From contig JAKSKW010000025.1 in the NCBI GenBank assembly GCA_024401495.1, forward strand, positions 1-18,573: DNA of 18,573 nucleotides, written 5' to 3'. Below are positions 6,349 through 18,573 of this stretch, piece after piece; positions within the stretch are counted from its first letter, which is position 1; each line of letters begins with the position of its first letter. A program made the position numbers and the translations under genes. The notes beneath the pieces were generated by a model. That model did no database searches. It had not been told where the DNA came from and saw nothing but the letters and a program-made list of their open reading frames with translations. This DNA is from Paludibacteraceae bacterium. Lineage in GTDB: Bacteria; Bacteroidota; Bacteroidia; Bacteroidales; Paludibacteraceae.

Positions 6349-6900
6349 CTACTTTATCTTCTTCACCACACTCTTAATCGCTGCCTGTTCGTCCTTCAAA
6401 TCCATCATCGACACGACAGCCTGCAACTCTTTCAATAGTTCAGGCTCACGTTTGCAAAGCTGGTAGGCAATCTTGATGCAGACAGCCCTCATTGCCACAG
6501 CCATACGCATATTGCAGATATTCTCAAGGGAAAAGTTGAGAAGGTCGACGTCGATATCCTTCGTCTCAGGAAGAAGCATAAGGGAGATGTTGAGCCATAA
6601 ACGGAGTTCTCCAGTCTCAGTTTTCGTCTCGGTTTTCGTTTTCGTCTTCGTCTTCGTCTTCGTTTTCGTTTTCGTTATAATCTCCACCACCCTACGCTGA
6701 TAAGGCACCAACCGTTTCCTATCCTTCTTGCACAATGCCTCCAGCACCCACACAGCGTGCCAAGCCAAACGTGGATTATCACTGCCGGTGAGCTCCCAAA
6801 GCAGAGCTATATCAGTATTGCCGACGAGAATGTCGTCAACAATCGCGTCGACAGCATTTTTATGCAAACGATTATCTGACAATATAGAAATGATATCCAT
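6349..6900 (-). CDS. HEAT-like helical repeat protein with Lys-Thr hexamer insert
   Basis: The 183-residue protein is read from the ATG at 6898-6900; a longer version would need a TTG at 6939. Paired amphipathic helices (VDAIVDDILVG / IALLWELTGS / PRLAWHAVWVLEALCKK / YQRRVVEII / LLNFSLENIC / MAVAMRAVCIKIAYQL / LLKELQAVVSMM) resemble HEAT or armadillo repeats, a protein-binding scaffold fold. No catalytic motif is seen. Between helices, residues about 76-96 are a pure Thr-Lys/Thr-Glu run encoded by the ACGAAR microsatellite, probably an expansion in a loop. It is convergent with the DUF4112 gene and divergent from the PepSY lipoprotein gene 103 bp away. Small HEAT-like proteins of this kind are usually annotated as hypothetical; the fold call is from helix pattern only. 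Confidence 0.75.
   Translation of the reverse strand: MDIISILSDNRLHKNAVDAIVDDILVGNTDIALLWELTGSDNPRLAWHAVWVLEALCKKDRKRLVPYQRRVVEIITKTKTKTKTKTKTKTETKTETGELRLWLNISLMLLPETKDIDVDLLNFSLENICNMRMAVAMRAVCIKIAYQLCKREPELLKELQAVVSMMDLKDEQAAIKSVVKKIK
6613..6675 (-). repeat. Hexanucleotide microsatellite inside the HEAT-like gene
   Basis: About ten hexamers ACGAAA/ACGAAG (with ACCGAG and ACTGAG variants at the distal end) run on the minus strand and encode Thr-Lys and Thr-Glu pairs. It is the same repeat family as at 676-725 in menD. There the frame is GACGAA (Asp-Glu); here it is ACGAAR (Thr-Lys), so selection acts on the DNA unit rather than one peptide. Confidence 0.85.
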
Positions 6901-6954
6901 TGAAAATGACGTGTCTTGATTTTGAAGTAAATATAGCAAGTATAAAATGATTCA

Positions 6955-12243: not shown

Positions 12244-14673
12244 TTACTTCACCATAATCCTATAGTCTGCATCCTTCACCTTGACATCGTAGATATCCGA
12301 TGATAGCGGACTTAGATTCAAATAACCATTTGAGATTGTCTTCTCCATCACTACTCTACCATTTACATCGTAGACTGTGACATTTCCACTGTACATATTT
12401 CCAGCCTCATCTGTGATGAACAAATCTCCAGTTGTTGGGTTTGGATATGCCGACTTGCCAATAGCATTAATCTCTGACACATCAGTAGGATCCTTCACCT
12501 CGATATAGCCTGTATAAGTTGCCTCTGTATCAGCATCGCTGACAGTAGTGACAGTCCAATTGAATGTTCCCTCCTCAGCAGGTGTACCGCTGAAATAGAT
12601 ATTCTTTGTGGCCTGGTCAATCTTTGTCTCAATACCAGCTGGAGCCTTTGGTTCCCATGAAATCTTAACAGTTGAAGCGTCGCTCCAAGTTAGATAATAG
12701 TCTGTGATTGCATTATTGATATATACAGTCTGCTTGCTCGAACCACCACCATGCTTTGTAAGTGTAGGCTCAGCCATATTGCGAAGACTCTTATAATACT
12801 CCACAGGGCTGTAACCCAAGTGAGGTGGCTGGTTATATCCACAATGCTCCCAAGCCACAGCCATATCATACACATGGTCGTCACGTAGCCAAGGCAACTT
12901 ATATGGGCTTGGCATTGTTGATGTGTAGATTGTCAAATAATACTGACCATTCTGTTGTGTCCAGAACACAGACTCCTCACGCCAGTCGCCCACAAGATCA
13001 GACTGTAGACATGGGTTGTACTTAGTATCGTTGTTAAGTTCAGCACCCCACTGCACCTTAGTGCCGTTGACCATGATATTGTAACCGAATGTGTATGTAC
13101 GGCCCCAAGTCTTATTTACATTGTCCCACTTGTCGACGTGACCACGGTCTGTATACTCCTCCAACAAATCACCATCCCAGAAGATACGTCCGTTGATTGA
13201 ACTGCTGTTTGTACTACCTGTGTGCCAATCAGCAAACTCATATCCTTTGCATGTGAAGATTTTTGCATTGCTCCACTCAAAAGCCTCAGCACCGTCGAAT
13301 GTGCTGTCACAGTCGAGAATCAAACCACGACCTGTATCACCACCTGTCTGATTCTTATACATCAACACTTTTCCAGTTTTGGCGTCAAGCAAACAGCAGT
13401 CATATTTAGCAGTCTCCTCCTCTGTGATCATGAAATATTCCAATCCAGGGTTTGAAGGATCAAACTCACCCAAGTGAGTGGCGTCTCCATGACCAAGGCC
13501 AGTGCTCCATAGAGTATTGCCATTATGGTCGATACAAGCGGCACCAGTGATGATCTCATCAAAACCATCATTATCGACGTCGCCACAAGTGATACTGTGA
13601 GCTCCCTGTGCATAGACGCCCTGACCTTGCTTGTCGGAAGAGTGCTTCCAAAGATTAGTCAAATTCTTTCCATCCCAATTCCATGCAGCGGCATAAACGT
13701 ATGTATAGATTCCACGAGTAGTCACGACGCATGGCTTAGCCTTGCCGTTGACATCAAGGAATGCCACACAACCCTTTAGCCAATTACCACGGTGACCGTA
13801 GGTATTGCCATCGCTCTTACCAGGGCGGTCGTCCCAGTTAGACTGGATATTAAAGTATGGCCAATAGTCGACGGTAGCCAACTCCTCACCTGTCCTACCG
13901 CTGAAGCAAGTCATCCACTCCGGACCACCATCAGTCACAAGACCATTCTTCAAACAGTTCTGATAAGGATTTGAACCAGCAGCCTTACCTTTGCTAAGGA
14001 AGTTGCCCTTACCATCTTTTGAACCTGGAGCAGTCTTAGTGATCAACTCACCGTAACCGTCGCCATCAAAGTCGTAGCAAAGGAAAGAAAGACGACATCC
14101 ACTCAAGATGTTTGGTCCAAGATTAACCTTCCACAATGATCTACCGTCAAGTTTCAAACACTCCAAGATTGGAGGCGCAGTGGCAGCGGCAGTAGCACCC
14201 TCACCAGCCGACCAACACATGATGATCTCCTCCTCACCGTCGCCATCCATATCGTAGGCAGAACAGTCATAAGGATGATAAGTCACCACGTCGCCAGTAG
14301 GCAACTTGTATGTGCCGGGATGATTAAGTTTGATATGATGGTATGGATAAGCATCCACCTTGATTCCTGATTGCGAATCGATCACCTCACCAGCCTTGTT
14401 CAACACCTCAAGAGAGAAAGTTGAATTAGCATAATTAGATGTAAGAGTTGTGTTCGTGCGATCCTTAGAAGAGAACACAAGTTTGCCATCTGCATATAGA
14501 TTATATGTAGTCGACTTGGGAGAATCTGTAGCGCGCATACGCCAACTGGCAAATATAGAGTTGCCATCCTGACAAGCCCAAAGACCACGGTTGGCACCAG
14601 CGTGGGCAGTACCCAAACCTAATGCACCACCAAGCATAAGGGCTGAAAAAAGTTTTGTAGCTGTATTTTTCAT
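12244..14673 (-). CDS. PL11 rhamnogalacturonan lyase with T9SS sorting domain
   Basis: The 809-residue protein is read from the ATG at 14671-14673; a TTG two codons upstream is less likely. It has a signal peptide (MKNTATKLFSALMLGGALGL...AHA). The catalytic part follows the PL11 (YesW/YesX-type) beta-propeller. NRGLWACQDGNSIFASWR starts an N-terminal beta domain. Calcium-binding DxDxDG loops follow: YDMDGDGEEEII near 140, YDFDGDGYGELI, and CGDVDNDGFDEIITG. HLGEFDPSNPGLEYF, GGDTGRGLILD and the family-typical NGRIFWDGDLLEEY come later. The enzyme cleaves rhamnogalacturonan I in pectin by beta-elimination. The last ~75 residues (SAYPNPTTGDLFIT...VYDVNGRVV...DIYDVKV...YRIMVK) are a T9SS type-A sorting domain, so the enzyme is secreted or surface-attached. 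No SusC/SusD pair or other pectin genes lie within the window. Confidence 0.92.
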   Translation of the reverse strand: MKNTATKLFSALMLGGALGLGTAHAGANRGLWACQDGNSIFASWRMRATDSPKSTTYNLYADGKLVFSSKDRTNTTLTSNYANSTFSLEVLNKAGEVIDSQSGIKVDAYPYHHIKLNHPGTYKLPTGDVVTYHPYDCSAYDMDGDGEEEIIMCWSAGEGATAAATAPPILECLKLDGRSLWKVNLGPNILSGCRLSFLCYDFDGDGYGELITKTAPGSKDGKGNFLSKGKAAGSNPYQNCLKNGLVTDGGPEWMTCFSGRTGEELATVDYWPYFNIQSNWDDRPGKSDGNTYGHRGNWLKGCVAFLDVNGKAKPCVVTTRGIYTYVYAAAWNWDGKNLTNLWKHSSDKQGQGVYAQGAHSITCGDVDNDGFDEIITGAACIDHNGNTLWSTGLGHGDATHLGEFDPSNPGLEYFMITEEETAKYDCCLLDAKTGKVLMYKNQTGGDTGRGLILDCDSTFDGAEAFEWSNAKIFTCKGYEFADWHTGSTNSSSINGRIFWDGDLLEEYTDRGHVDKWDNVNKTWGRTYTFGYNIMVNGTKVQWGAELNNDTKYNPCLQSDLVGDWREESVFWTQQNGQYYLTIYTSTMPSPYKLPWLRDDHVYDMAVAWEHCGYNQPPHLGYSPVEYYKSLRNMAEPTLTKHGGGSSKQTVYINNAITDYYLTWSDASTVKISWEPKAPAGIETKIDQATKNIYFSGTPAEEGTFNWTVTTVSDADTEATYTGYIEVKDPTDVSEINAIGKSAYPNPTTGDLFITDEAGNMYSGNVTVYDVNGRVVMEKTISNGYLNLSPLSSDIYDVKVKDADYRIMVK

Positions 14674-14763
14674 ATCCAAGCAATTTTCTGTTTATGTGCT
14701 TGCTAATTTATCAAAGAATATCAAAAAGTGGTTCGACAAAACTTGTGTTTTTGGGCACTATTA

Positions 14764-14874: not shown

Positions 14875-15081
14875 TCACTCTCCTCTTCTATATGCTTTTA
14901 TCTCCTCAATTATTTCTTCGTCAGACATAGTACACTTTGGCATTTTTTCCATAGCGGACTTCATTTCATTCCATAATTCATCTGTGGACATATTTTCGTA
15001 TGACCTTTTGGTATTTTGTAACAAAACCTTCTTTGCTACTTCTACCGTTACTACTCTGTTTTTACTTTGTACTCCTAGCAT
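14875..15081 (-). CDS. Small antitoxin-like protein, no partner toxin seen
   Basis: The 68-residue protein is read from the ATG at 15079-15081. The sequence begins MLGVQSKNRVVTVEVAKKVLLQ and ends MSDEEIIEEIKAYRRGE. The acidic amphipathic C-terminal helix (SDEEIxxEIKAxR) resembles the toxin-binding tails of type II antitoxins for PIN or RelE toxins. The N-terminus shows no clear ribbon-helix-helix or Phd motif. A -7 match (TAACTTTG on the minus strand, 15102-15109) lies 20 bp before the ATG, which supports a real gene. No toxin-sized reading frame follows before the PL11 gene, so it is either an orphan or a different small regulator. Family assignment is from general resemblance only. Confidence 0.55.
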   Translation of the reverse strand: MLGVQSKNRVVTVEVAKKVLLQNTKRSYENMSTDELWNEMKSAMEKMPKCTMSDEEIIEEIKAYRRGE

Positions 15082-16548: not shown

Positions 16549-16577
16549 CATAAGACTGTCCATAAAACATACAAAAG

Positions 16578-16608
16578 GCATTGCATCTTTGATGCGATGC
16601 TTTTTTTT
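16578..16608 (+). terminator. Intrinsic terminator after the AraC-type regulator
   Basis: GCATTGCATC (16578-16587), loop TTT, GATGCGATGC (16591-16600; one G-U pair) and then T8. This is a classical Rho-independent terminator, 30 bp after the stop. Confidence 0.9.
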
Positions 16609-16686
16609 GTATCGTCCTATATCAACGTCTTTTTAGGAAATTTTATAATAAAGAGATTATATAGCAGATGTCTAAAAATGAGGATT

Positions 16687-16740
16687 GCAAAGGGCGGAAC
16701 GCCCTTGCCCCTCCCCCAACGCGAGGCCGTAGGCCGAGCG
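16687..16740. repeat. GC-rich island with hairpin and short repeats
   Basis: GCAAAGGGCG-GAA-CGCCCTTGC forms a strong hairpin with one bulge. It is followed by a C-rich run and GAGGCCGTAGGCCGAG, which holds a direct repeat of GGCCG. The composition is sharply unlike the AT-rich flanks. It may be a dispersed repeat element; a genome copy count would decide. Confidence 0.5.
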
Positions 16741-16825
16741 TATAAAGGAAAAGCGTGATTAGACAACTCATATATAATTTCTATAATAATACATATCTTC
16801 TTTATATACAACAATTTAACCTAAT

Positions 16826-16871
16826 GTACAAATTGTGAAAACGTACAAATTGTGAAGTTCACAAACTGTCC
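16826..16871. promoter_or_regulatory. Operator candidate: direct repeats plus an inverted third copy
   Basis: GTACAAATTGTGAA occurs exactly at 16826-16839 and 16843-16856 (17-bp period). TTCACAAACTGTCC at 16858-16871 matches the reverse complement at 11 of 14 positions. Direct repeats at about 1.5-2 helical turns are typical of AraC-type sites. They lie about 45-90 bp upstream of the -7 element at 16916, where an activator would bind. Confidence 0.55.
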
Positions 16872-16915
16872 GCACGCTTTTCCTTTTCTGTCCGACGCAC
16901 CCCAGAATCTTGCCC

Positions 16916-16923
16916 TACTTTTG
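16916..16923 (+). promoter_or_regulatory. Predicted -7 element for the micro-peptide operon
   Basis: TACTTTTG matches TAnnTTTG and is identical to the -7 elements at 1570 and 15264. No TTTG is present at -33, which fits an activator-dependent promoter. Transcription would start near 16930, leaving a leader of about 90 nt. Confidence 0.55.
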
Positions 16924-16998
16924 CAATGTCAACGGGAACAAACGACAACAACAAATCCTGAAGACAACACATTAAAAACAATAAAAAACAAAATTCAT

Positions 16999-17240
16999 TA
17001 ACAATTAAAAACTAAGCATTATGGCATCATTTATTCTCATGGTAATCGGAACAGCAGCGATCTTCTCATTCAGTTTCGCATACGTTACAATAACAGATAA
17101 GAAATAACAATTAAAAACTAAGCATTATGGCATCATTTATTCTCATGCTAATCGGAACAGCGGCGATCTTCTCATTCAGTTTCGCATACGTTACAATCTT
17201 CTCATTCAGTTTCGCATACGTTACAATAACAGATAAGAAA
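16999..17240 (+). repeat. Tandem duplication carrying two micro-peptide genes
   Basis: Unit 1 spans 16999-17104 (106 bp) and unit 2 spans 17105-17240 (136 bp). Each has the same leader (AACAATTAAAAACTAAGCATT) and coding sequence. They differ by two substitutions and by a 30-bp internal duplication in unit 2 (17166-17195 repeated at 17196-17225). The leader alone recurs a third time at 17241-17262. Confidence 0.9.
17021..17107 (+). CDS. 28-residue hydrophobic micro-peptide
   Basis: ATG GCA TCA ... AAG AAA TAA encodes MASFILMVIGTAAIFSFSFA followed by YVTITDKK. Residues 3-24 form one hydrophobic, probably transmembrane, helix rich in Phe/Ser/Ala, with a charged DKK tail. It is preceded by the shared leader ending CTAAGCATT-ATG and overlaps by 3 bp the leader of the next copy. 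I recognise no family. Near-identical duplication of both leader and reading frame, with the substitutions compatible with coding (Val to Leu, one silent Ala codon), supports real translation. It could be a small membrane protein, a signal peptide pheromone precursor or a toxin of the type I kind. Confidence 0.65.
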   Translation: MASFILMVIGTAAIFSFSFAYVTITDKK

Positions 17241-17243
17241 TAA
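17127..17243 (+). CDS. 38-residue hydrophobic micro-peptide, internally duplicated paralogue
   Basis: This is a copy of the preceding peptide gene: MASFILMLIGTAA, then the decapeptide IFSFSFAYVT twice, then ITDKK. The in-frame 30-bp duplication lengthens the hydrophobic span from about 22 to about 32 residues. That is too long for a simple helix and may alter its membrane behaviour. The same leader and start context are used. The stop overlaps the leader of the third micro-gene. The function is unknown. Confidence 0.65.
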   Translation: MASFILMLIGTAAIFSFSFAYVTIFSFSFAYVTITDKK

Positions 17244-17262
17244 CAATTAAAAACTAAGCATT

Positions 17263-17337
17263 ATGGTTACAGCAATTCTATTGTTTCTAGGAGCAGCGGC
17301 ATCAACAGGTCTAATACTACTAAATCATATTATGTAG
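17263..17337 (+). CDS. 24-residue hydrophobic micro-peptide
   Basis: The reading frame encodes MVTAILLFLGAAASTGLILL followed by NHIM and a TAG stop. It is almost wholly hydrophobic, a single predicted TM helix. It differs in sequence from the two preceding peptides but uses the same 22-bp leader ending CTAAGCATT-ATG. The shared leader and position in a row of similar genes are the evidence for coding; size alone would not be enough. The function is unknown. Confidence 0.55.
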   Translation: MVTAILLFLGAAASTGLILLNHIM

Positions 17338-17395
17338 GAAATGATCCATTAGACAGCAATCAATATTCAAAATATAATCTAAAAATTTAAGCATT

Positions 17396-17971
17396 ATGAA
17401 TACGAAATTCTTAAACATATCAGCAGTCATTTTCATAGTAGCGTCTTCTTTATTTGGTACTTCATGCACAGATTATGATGAAGGCGGTTATTATCCACTT
17501 CAGGATGAGCCAGAAAATATTCAGAAGACACTTGAAACAAGAGCTAAAATCTCAGAGGATGCAGCAGAATTCTATGATATTAAGGCAACATATAAGTATA
17601 ATGGTGTGAATGTAGAGGAAAATCTTCAGGATTTGTTTATGGATGAAAAGACCAGATATGCCTCTCAGGATCCAGAAGAGGATCTGACGATCATTTCCTT
17701 CAAGAAATATGGTTTCTCAAAAACAGTGGATAGCGACAAGGTCGGTGTGACCATCACAGCGACACCTAAGTCTGATGCCATCGCCAGAGTGGAAGCCATG
17801 CCTGACGACTCAAAGTTCATATATTTCATCGACAGCGAGACACGTGTAAACGGCAAACTTAATAACTTTTACTACAATAAGCTTGTAAAGGGATGTAACA
17901 CAATGAGCAAGGCTCAGTTCCTTCAGCATTTGAGAAACGGAGAAAAACTTATTGAGTCGCAGATTTTCTAA
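17396..17971 (+). CDS. Putative lipoprotein of unknown family
   Basis: The 191-residue protein begins MNTKFLNISAVIFIVASSLF and continues to a lipobox-like GTSC, so Cys24 is the probable lipidation site, followed by TDYDEGG. The mature part is acidic and contains KATYKYNGVNVEENLQDLF, DLTIISFKKYGFSKTV, VGVTITATPKSDAIARVEAM and a C-terminal helix region ending KLIESQIF. I recognise no domain. It would sit in the periplasm or on the outer membrane. It starts with TTAAGCATT-ATG, the same start context as the micro-peptide genes, 58 bp after the third, so it probably belongs to the same operon. It may be the partner or receptor of the small peptides; this is inference. Confidence 0.75.
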   Translation: MNTKFLNISAVIFIVASSLFGTSCTDYDEGGYYPLQDEPENIQKTLETRAKISEDAAEFYDIKATYKYNGVNVEENLQDLFMDEKTRYASQDPEEDLTIISFKKYGFSKTVDSDKVGVTITATPKSDAIARVEAMPDDSKFIYFIDSETRVNGKLNNFYYNKLVKGCNTMSKAQFLQHLRNGEKLIESQIF

Positions 17972-18021
17972 TTCATAATTTTGATAGACATACAATATTA
18001 AACAATTAAAATATAAGCGTT

Positions 18022-18168
18022 ATGAAAGCAAGGTTATACTCATTTCTATACTCCGTATTCATTTCCATGTTTGAAATGCCATCGGATACTTCATGTCACC
18101 CAAACAGAGACTCTGGAAAGGATGGACCCTCCAATCCACCAAAAGAAAAAAATAAAAATTCAGAATGA
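18022..18168 (+). CDS. 48-residue small secreted or lipoprotein-like peptide
   Basis: The reading frame from the ATG at 18022 starts MKARLYSFLYSVFISMFEM and continues PSDTSCHPNRDSG, ending in a Lys/Asn/Pro-rich polar tail. Residues 5-17 are hydrophobic but short. Cys25 in DTSC could be a lipidation site, though the signal is weak. Its start context (ATAAGCGTT-ATG, after AACAATTAAAAT) belongs to the same series as the four genes upstream. A strong terminator follows 33 bp after the stop, marking it as the last gene of the operon. No family is recognised. Confidence 0.6.
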   Translation: MKARLYSFLYSVFISMFEMPSDTSCHPNRDSGKDGPSNPPKEKNKNSE

Positions 18169-18201
18169 GGCTGTATGTTAGTCAGTAAACATCCAATATG
18201 T

Positions 18202-18231
18202 AAAAAAGCAACCTAATAAGGTTGCTTTTTT
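18202..18231 (+). terminator. Intrinsic terminator ending the micro-peptide operon
   Basis: AAAAAAGCAACCT (18202-18214), loop AATA, AGGTTGCTTTTTT (18219-18231). The 13-bp stem with A and T arms could work in both directions. Confidence 0.88.
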
Positions 18232-18573
18232 ATGTGTTTTGTTTTTAACCAGTAAGCTTACAGTATGGACAATCATTTCATCCAACATGGTTAGAAAATT
18301 TGATATAGCTTTTATCTTATATTCTTTCATCATTCATTTGTTGAGAAATCACGTCTACAAAAATAACATAGAAACTCTGTAAAACAATAAAATCAGCCCG
18401 AAGGCTGATTCTAAATCTCATCGATTCTGTCTGGTGTAAGTTGTAGTAGTCACAACTGTCCGAGGTCAGGGTTTCTAATACCCTGACAAAATAGTCCCAG
18501 AAAGACACGTCGTTCAAATCCTAAATGGAATGATCAACATGTATACTAAATCCTGTCCAAATAAATACTCTTT
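18232..18573. other. Right-end region without a supported gene
   Basis: No convincing reading frame was found in either strand. The segment at 18391-18487 carries three hairpins (18391-18410, 18439-18457, 18465-18487). The remaining flanks are AT-rich with nothing assignable. Confidence 0.6.
18391..18410 (-). terminator. UUCG-tetraloop hairpin, terminator-like on the minus strand
   Basis: On the minus strand the stem AATCAGCC / GGCTGATT closes a TTCG loop, an exceptionally stable C(UUCG)G tetraloop, and is followed by TTATTGTTTT. This would end a transcript entering from the right. The plus-strand version has a CGAA loop and no U tract. Confidence 0.55.

Follow-up and report, generated by a model that had tools for sequence, protein, structure and literature searches.

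In the 18,573-bp stretch of DNA analysed here (the window), three micropeptide genes lie downstream of a gene for a predicted seven-helix membrane protein bearing an AraC-type DNA-binding domain, and the locus probably belongs to a clade-specific regulon in which a membrane sensor directs the production of envelope micropeptides. As summarized in Table 1, the micropeptide genes follow a control block and a predicted 5' hairpin, and the array was read from the sequence as the start of a five-gene operon.

Table 1. Features of the regulator gene and of the micropeptide operon in the window
Feature	Coordinates	Strand	Description
Regulator gene, 417 aa	15295..16548	+	Predicted seven-helix membrane domain, disordered linker, AraC-type DNA-binding domain
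Terminator-like hairpin behind regulator gene	16573..16605	+	15 pairs and T tail; consensus scan only
Control block, 109 bp	16817..16925	+	Two GTACAA..TTGTGAA direct repeats, GTTCACAAACTGTCCG, CTGTCCG, CCCC, TACTTTTGC; from 40 aligned sites and model R1 searches
Predicted 5'-terminal hairpin of transcript	16927..16966	+	-8.1 kcal/mol, z -2.74
Start leader 1	16999..17020	+	A at -3, -6, -12, -13
Micropeptide gene 1	17021..17107	+	28 aa, single hydrophobic span
Start leader 2	17105..17126	+	First triplet is the stop codon of gene 1
Micropeptide gene 2	17127..17243	+	38 aa; copy of gene 1 plus in-frame 30-bp duplication (17166-17195 / 17196-17225)
Start leader 3	17241..17262	+	First triplet is the stop codon of gene 2
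Micropeptide gene 3	17263..17337	+	24 aa
Predicted lipoprotein gene, 191 aa	17396..17971	+	Lipobox read from sequence
Possible mini-lipoprotein gene, 48 aa	18022..18168	+	Lipobox-like TSC read from sequence
Terminator-like hairpin, operon end	18195..18238	+	20 pairs and T tail; consensus scan only

The initial annotation had described three micro-ORFs of 28, 38, and 24 codons behind a common leader, and all three were located where it had placed them, with the identical string TAACAATTAAAAACTAAGCATTATGG ahead of each. Repeat comparison also bore out the near-perfect tandem duplication and the in-frame duplication within the second ORF: units 1 and 2 constitute a 106-bp tandem repeat with two substitutions, and unit 2 additionally contains the perfect in-frame 30-bp duplication, an insertion found in the window only. 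Three non-overlapping hydrophobic ORFs of at least 20 aa arose in none of 2000 dinucleotide shuffles of positions 16926-17395, and the outcome was likewise 0/2000 when the duplicated unit was counted once and two ORFs were needed. In the closest relative (G001; genome of 2.2 Mb), the 17-base leader AAAAACTAAGCATTATG was found nine times on both strands with up to two mismatches, eight of these matches falling within 3.1 kb at the array locus, its second operon included, and the reversed-pattern control occurred once. Since the starts at 17396 and 18022, those of the following two genes, also have similar leaders, the leader is a feature of the operon that is not specific to the micro-ORFs. PMC6847099 describes adenine at positions -3, -6, -12, and -13 as favouring initiation in Flavobacterium johnsoniae; all three micro-ORFs carry A at these positions, and no difference was seen between the array leaders and the Kozak-like start contexts of Bacteroidetes as presented there. 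A Bacteroidetes start context together with the duplication thus accounts for the common leader, and the identical leader is best read, on sequence grounds, as an efficient start context kept through duplication; a special signal was ruled out on the same basis. All four adenines also occur at two of the nine non-regulon starts compared in the window (2739 and 11417), and the context is not uniform across the regulon, with A at -3 in 27 and at -6 in 41 of 54 first-cistron rows.

The micro-ORFs are very likely coding, as judged from several properties of their sequences. The balance of synonymous and non-synonymous change among copies, a check that the initial annotation had suggested, was computed and favours coding, with a pooled pN/pS of 0.31 over eight small-ORF pairs (pS 0.153, pN 0.048; binomial p = 1.4e-4), although this signal of constraint derives mainly from paralogues and a 26-aa pair (G3_1/G3_2, G1_5/G1_6, and the 26-aa pair) because changes were few in five of the eight pairs. 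These pairs consisted of six micropeptide pairs, the 26-aa pair, and a 48-aa pair, and comprised 23.5 synonymous differences over 153.5 sites and 23.5 non-synonymous differences over 494.5 sites; the five pairs in question carried three changes or fewer, and three of them (gene 1, gene 2, and the G005 pair) had one amino-acid change and zero synonymous changes. Gene 3 differed from its G001 counterpart by two synonymous changes and none other. The G001 locus, which shares 93% identity in the regulator and 96% DNA identity over positions 16999-18573, contains three 28-aa copies, the 24-aa gene, the 191-aa lipoprotein gene, and the 48-aa gene; frame-breaking changes, on which the earlier reading would have failed, were sought in this one close relative and none was found, the three copies and the 24-aa gene being intact.

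Recent diversification, as had also been proposed, was borne out in part: the copies differ in number and length between the window and G001 (two, of which one is lengthened, against three), whereas sequence change favours synonymous sites. Codon 12 is GCA in the first copies and GCG in the later ones, and the first duplication thus predates the split from G001; after the split, either G001 would have gained a third copy or the window would have lost one. Beyond the extent of the window, the G001 locus continues with a second control block and leader, after which come genes for a lipoprotein (185 aa), a 20-aa peptide, a protein built of 13-residue repeats (103 aa), and a further 20-aa peptide.

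The earlier proposal of small membrane proteins was in good agreement with hydropathy. Across 19 micro-ORF rows, drawn from this locus and its relatives, the read frame was always the most hydrophobic of the three, and the best 17-residue hydropathy mean was at least 1.9 in 18 of them (the exception, G3_7, reached 1.33), with values of 2.19, 2.17, and 2.32 for the 28-, 38-, and 24-aa peptides, respectively. By hydropathy alone, each has one span covering most of an ORF shorter than 50 aa, as expected for a small membrane protein, and it is highly probable that the peptides insert into the membrane.

In contrast to their size, hydrophobicity, and control, which are mostly common to the micropeptides of different operons, the sequences of these peptides are for the most part not shared. 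Gene 1 has relatives in another species (G003), where peptides of 27-29 aa form a four-gene operon, and its alignments with G3_1, G3_3, and G3_4 each scored above every one of 1000 shuffles (G3_2 being left out). Among the 55 pairs formed by 11 peptides, this excess was seen only in those three pairs and in G3_3 with G3_4, and a single peptide family across the regulon was thereby ruled out; gene 3 was weakly similar to G3_3 (p = 0.017) and G3_4 (p = 0.014), and most other regulon micropeptides gave no alignment with the gene 1 peptide. Among 38 genomes, the gene 1 family was confined to G001 and G003, either as the rows of the model itself or as near-identical copies, the best other match having an E value of 0.036. 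The three peptides matched no curated small-peptide family above cutoff in NCBIfam or Pfam, or at E ≤ 0.1 in PHROGs. This divergence between operons is the result most against a simple story; it may mean that what matters is insertion into the membrane as such, or that the partners differ.

The control block ends in TAnnTTTG, which we take to be the Bacteroidetes -7 element; a sigma-70 scan is ill-suited to this phylum. From the first repeat to the -7 element, 38 of the 40 extracted sites measured 109 bases (one 110 and one 108), the sites having been chosen for three or fewer substitutions and a TAnnTTTG at 38-48 bases, with cut sites such as L101 left out; the spacing of the two direct repeats differs by up to three bases among sites. 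The predicted hairpin lies immediately 3' of the -7 element. Leader folds had a mean z of -2.14 with 26/38 below -1.5, against +0.05 and 3/38 for control stretches 150 bases further on, and a GTC triplet was paired in 33 of the 38 folds, usually with an inner stem next to it. Both-sided pair changes (outer T:A and C:G, inner G:C and A:T) were read from each sequence's own fold, and these hairpin counts are those of individual folds and not tree-based, the MAFFT leader alignment A3 having been set aside on account of mis-set 3' arms and a wrong-strand row (L172). An Rfam search of the window returned no family.

A 21-base pattern from the window locus, allowing three mismatches, was present in 11 of 13 regulator-bearing genomes, and its reversed control in 0/13. 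Model R1 matched 19 of 250 genomes of the family; in the order it matched one of 393 genomes (G001), apart from one weak partial match (E = 8.8e-4). The regulator occurs in 15 of the same 250 genomes, all of them among the 19 R1-positive ones (Fisher p = 8e-21, not corrected for kinship and largely reflecting one clade). Training sites for R1 came from 12 of the 19 positive genomes, and of the seven new ones three have the regulator (G010, G012, and G144) and four do not (G051, G068, G104, and G152). When searched for the regulator, three of these four gave matches at the level of the AraC domain only and G104 gave none, which may reflect incompleteness of the metagenome-assembled genomes (MAGs) or another protein acting there. 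At the genus level, G014 and G015 had neither block nor regulator, and G017 had a 47-residue regulator piece at a contig end and no DNA match to the block. Among the 15 genomes with both, ten have a block at most 450 bp from the regulator gene, two have one 2.8-3.5 kb away, two 12-14 kb away, and one on another contig. Co-occurrence and adjacency make the seven-helix protein a candidate regulator, and it likely binds the block; that the block-bearing genes constitute one co-regulated regulon appears well supported by these sequence comparisons.

The regulator scored above the curated cutoffs for the AraC/XylS helix-turn-helix (HTH_18, 62.5 bits against 33.6; HTH_AraC, 37.2 against 26.6) and matched the SoxS chain 7w5w_J in a profile comparison (E = 1.7e-9), with 236 relatives at E ≤ 0.001. 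In the AlphaFold2 model of the whole protein, which had a mean pLDDT of 69.8, a disordered linker joins seven long helices to the AraC domain, and the membrane domain alone gave a pLDDT of 77.1 and a pTM of 0.76; ten-residue pLDDT means of the membrane part ranged over 58-89 in the former and 50-89 in the latter. A DNA-binding domain and membrane helices are thus predicted to coexist in one chain, as in transmembrane regulators. No Pfam family covers the membrane domain, and its similarity to GPCRs and rhodopsins was weak, such that no membership is claimed. While the HTH_18 score and the direct repeats upstream of the promoter resemble those of the AraC/XylS family, the protein has an N-terminal membrane bundle without Pfam match instead of a soluble ligand domain. 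It would carry a sensor of its own that anchors the DNA-binding domain to the membrane, like ToxR, TcpP, and CadC, transmembrane transcription regulators treated in PMC10269533, the main text of which does not contain the term AraC; it differs from them in the predicted fusion of a seven-helix bundle to an AraC domain. In the open-access literature (subscription papers being outside the scope), no description of this regulon or of a seven-helix AraC protein as a sensor type was found.

A profile search with the regulator identified 19 loci: in 14 the match spans all or most of the protein, and in the other five it is limited to the DNA-binding domain. The former 14 belong to Paludibacteraceae or to unassigned Bacteroidales MAGs, several of them from horse faeces, and the Prevotellaceae, whose genomes the initial annotation had suggested searching, proved wrong for relatives of the full-length regulator. 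A Prevotella host was likewise ruled out, the five Bacteroidaceae or Prevotellaceae-type loci being those that match the DNA-binding domain only. Carriage as mobile-element cargo was also rejected: positions 16549-18573 had no match in phage or plasmid records, and the regulator had no relative in viral contigs.

The complete first cistrons behind the block (n = 53) had a median length of 90 aa, with 16 below 60 aa and 49 of 200 aa or fewer; they were taken from a list of 55 sites in which L176 stands twice; the second L098 site had no ORF in view, which leaves 54 rows, and among these the L096 ORF was cut off, the L173 ORF looks spurious and that at L174+3767 was entered from an internal ATG. 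They include lipoproteins, secreted repeat proteins, a tail-anchored family of 45-57 aa, and micropeptides, and most of the genes behind the block encode small proteins that appear to be exported or membrane-bound. In G003, four micropeptides (27, 27, 29, and 27 aa) are the sole genes between the block and a terminator identified by reading; in G005, one micropeptide precedes CsgG, DUF4810, and GNA1162-like genes; and a 411-aa protein with a tyrosine-phosphatase domain also lies behind a block. Overall, we infer an envelope or surface programme. In the 5.8-billion-protein database, the 191-aa and 48-aa proteins of the window had two relatives and one, respectively. A lipoprotein family was rejected, the identity of 14-25% to three candidates being too weak for homology to be called, and PADLOC returned a partial match of the 191-aa protein to PDC-M39B (E = 0.0015).

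Further small genes were observed at block-bearing loci. A conserved 26-aa cationic, amphipathic-looking peptide is encoded between the control block and the regulator gene at L174:2091-2171 (G003) and L181:866-946 (G005), and none was seen ahead of the regulator gene of the window. Secreted-looking proteins of 13-residue repeats (DTRERAFERRVDV type) with differing repeat numbers occur behind the block at L001:10260-10571 and in L172. The tail-anchored family was found behind the block in five genomes (G002, G003, G004, G005, and G152; the second gene in G003), at L090:273-416 (its reverse strand), L102:1156-1293, and L174:4714-4854, and also in L088, L094, and L171.

In the favoured scheme, the upstream seven-helix AraC protein would sense an envelope or membrane condition and activate the block directly, also in the vicinity of its own gene. 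The 5' hairpin would stabilise the transcripts, and each leader would load ribosomes independently, whereby the tandem copies would raise the dosage of the peptides. These would enter the inner membrane as single helices and bind larger membrane proteins or change membrane properties, as do other bacterial small membrane proteins, while the lipoproteins, made together with them when the membrane-bound AraC protein is active, would alter the surface. A role of the peptides as modulators of membrane partners is our best guess from precedent, albeit a tentative one. MgrB is made under an envelope-sensing regulator. The peptides resemble MgrB, AcrZ, and CydX, modulators of larger membrane proteins, in having fewer than 50 aa and one hydrophobic span, but differ from them in their tandem near-identical copies, in one micropeptide-only operon, and in having no recognised partner and no curated family match. 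It is possible, though rather unlikely, that the micropeptides dock on the seven-helix bundle inside the membrane and set its activity as intramembrane ligands or feedback elements, with the tandem copy number tuning the circuit through gene dosage; a receptor and transcription factor encoded as one gene, with the seven-helix bundle fused to the AraC domain, would then control operons of self-encoded micropeptides.

Other functions of translated peptides were weighed against this modulator scheme. The peptides, being short, hydrophobic, and tandemly duplicated, recall Ldr and Ibs, which are tandem hydrophobic toxins of type I, and they might damage the membrane in the same manner while remaining silent until induced. 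This is, however, improbable: an antisense antitoxin promoter, sought at the consensus level as TAnnTTTG, was found on neither strand of 16926-17395, and the peptides further differ from these toxins by being part of a longer operon with lipoproteins, by strong, unobstructed start contexts, and by matching no family. Slightly less likely still is a function as antimicrobial peptides or as signals that are exported or released from the membrane, for which the predicted co-expression with exported proteins, the rapid change in copy number, and a likeness to the SpoV signalling-peptide model GAS_sig_Nterm speak. That likeness, the best sub-cutoff NCBIfam match (E = 0.12), is far under the cutoff at 11.9 against 44 bits, whereas hydropathy suggests retention in the membrane, and a non-systematic look at the genes of the operon identified no processing or export gene.

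A regulatory role of translation itself, in which the micro-ORFs would be leader peptides for the downstream lipoprotein gene, agrees with their position ahead of that gene in the window and in G001, but is very improbable given the micropeptide-only operon of G003, the second operon of G001, where the 20-aa genes come after the lipoprotein gene and one of them is last, and the selection on amino-acid sequence. It is equally hard to credit that a repeat expanding within a leader RNA left the micro-ORFs behind as untranslated by-products. Slippage or duplication typically yields repeats like the near-identical 106-bp units and the 30-bp one, yet pN/pS is below 1, the hydrophobicity is confined to the read frame, the 30-bp duplication is in-frame, and the start contexts and the related peptides in another species also argue for translation.

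Genes as short as 20-30 codons are missed by annotation, and a context that can be tested is available for few of them. For the micropeptide genes considered here, a control block has been defined, a 5' hairpin is predicted, start contexts are described, and there is a candidate regulator; moreover, one species' operon (that of G003) appears to be made of micropeptides alone; the 109-bp block could serve as a ready detector of unannotated small envelope genes across this gut clade.

Some further features of the window were observed. The intergenic stretch between the regulator gene and the array is 139 bases longer than in G001, and a palindromic GGGCGGAACGCCCT element lies at 16692-16705, between the terminator of the regulator and the control block of the array, in a stretch absent from L001. 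The presence of the same string in 20 of the 205 loci fetched, many of which overlap, suggests a REP-type repeat. Six-base tandem repeats are present within coding regions at 671-731, where they encode an acidic run in the minus-strand gene 3-1454, and at 6620-6676, where they encode a KT run in the minus-strand gene 6349-6939. On the minus strand, 12244-14679 encodes a rhamnogalacturonan lyase of family 11 with a secretion-system C-terminal sorting domain, and 14875-15081 is a 68-aa ORF that also lies beside the regulator in L001.
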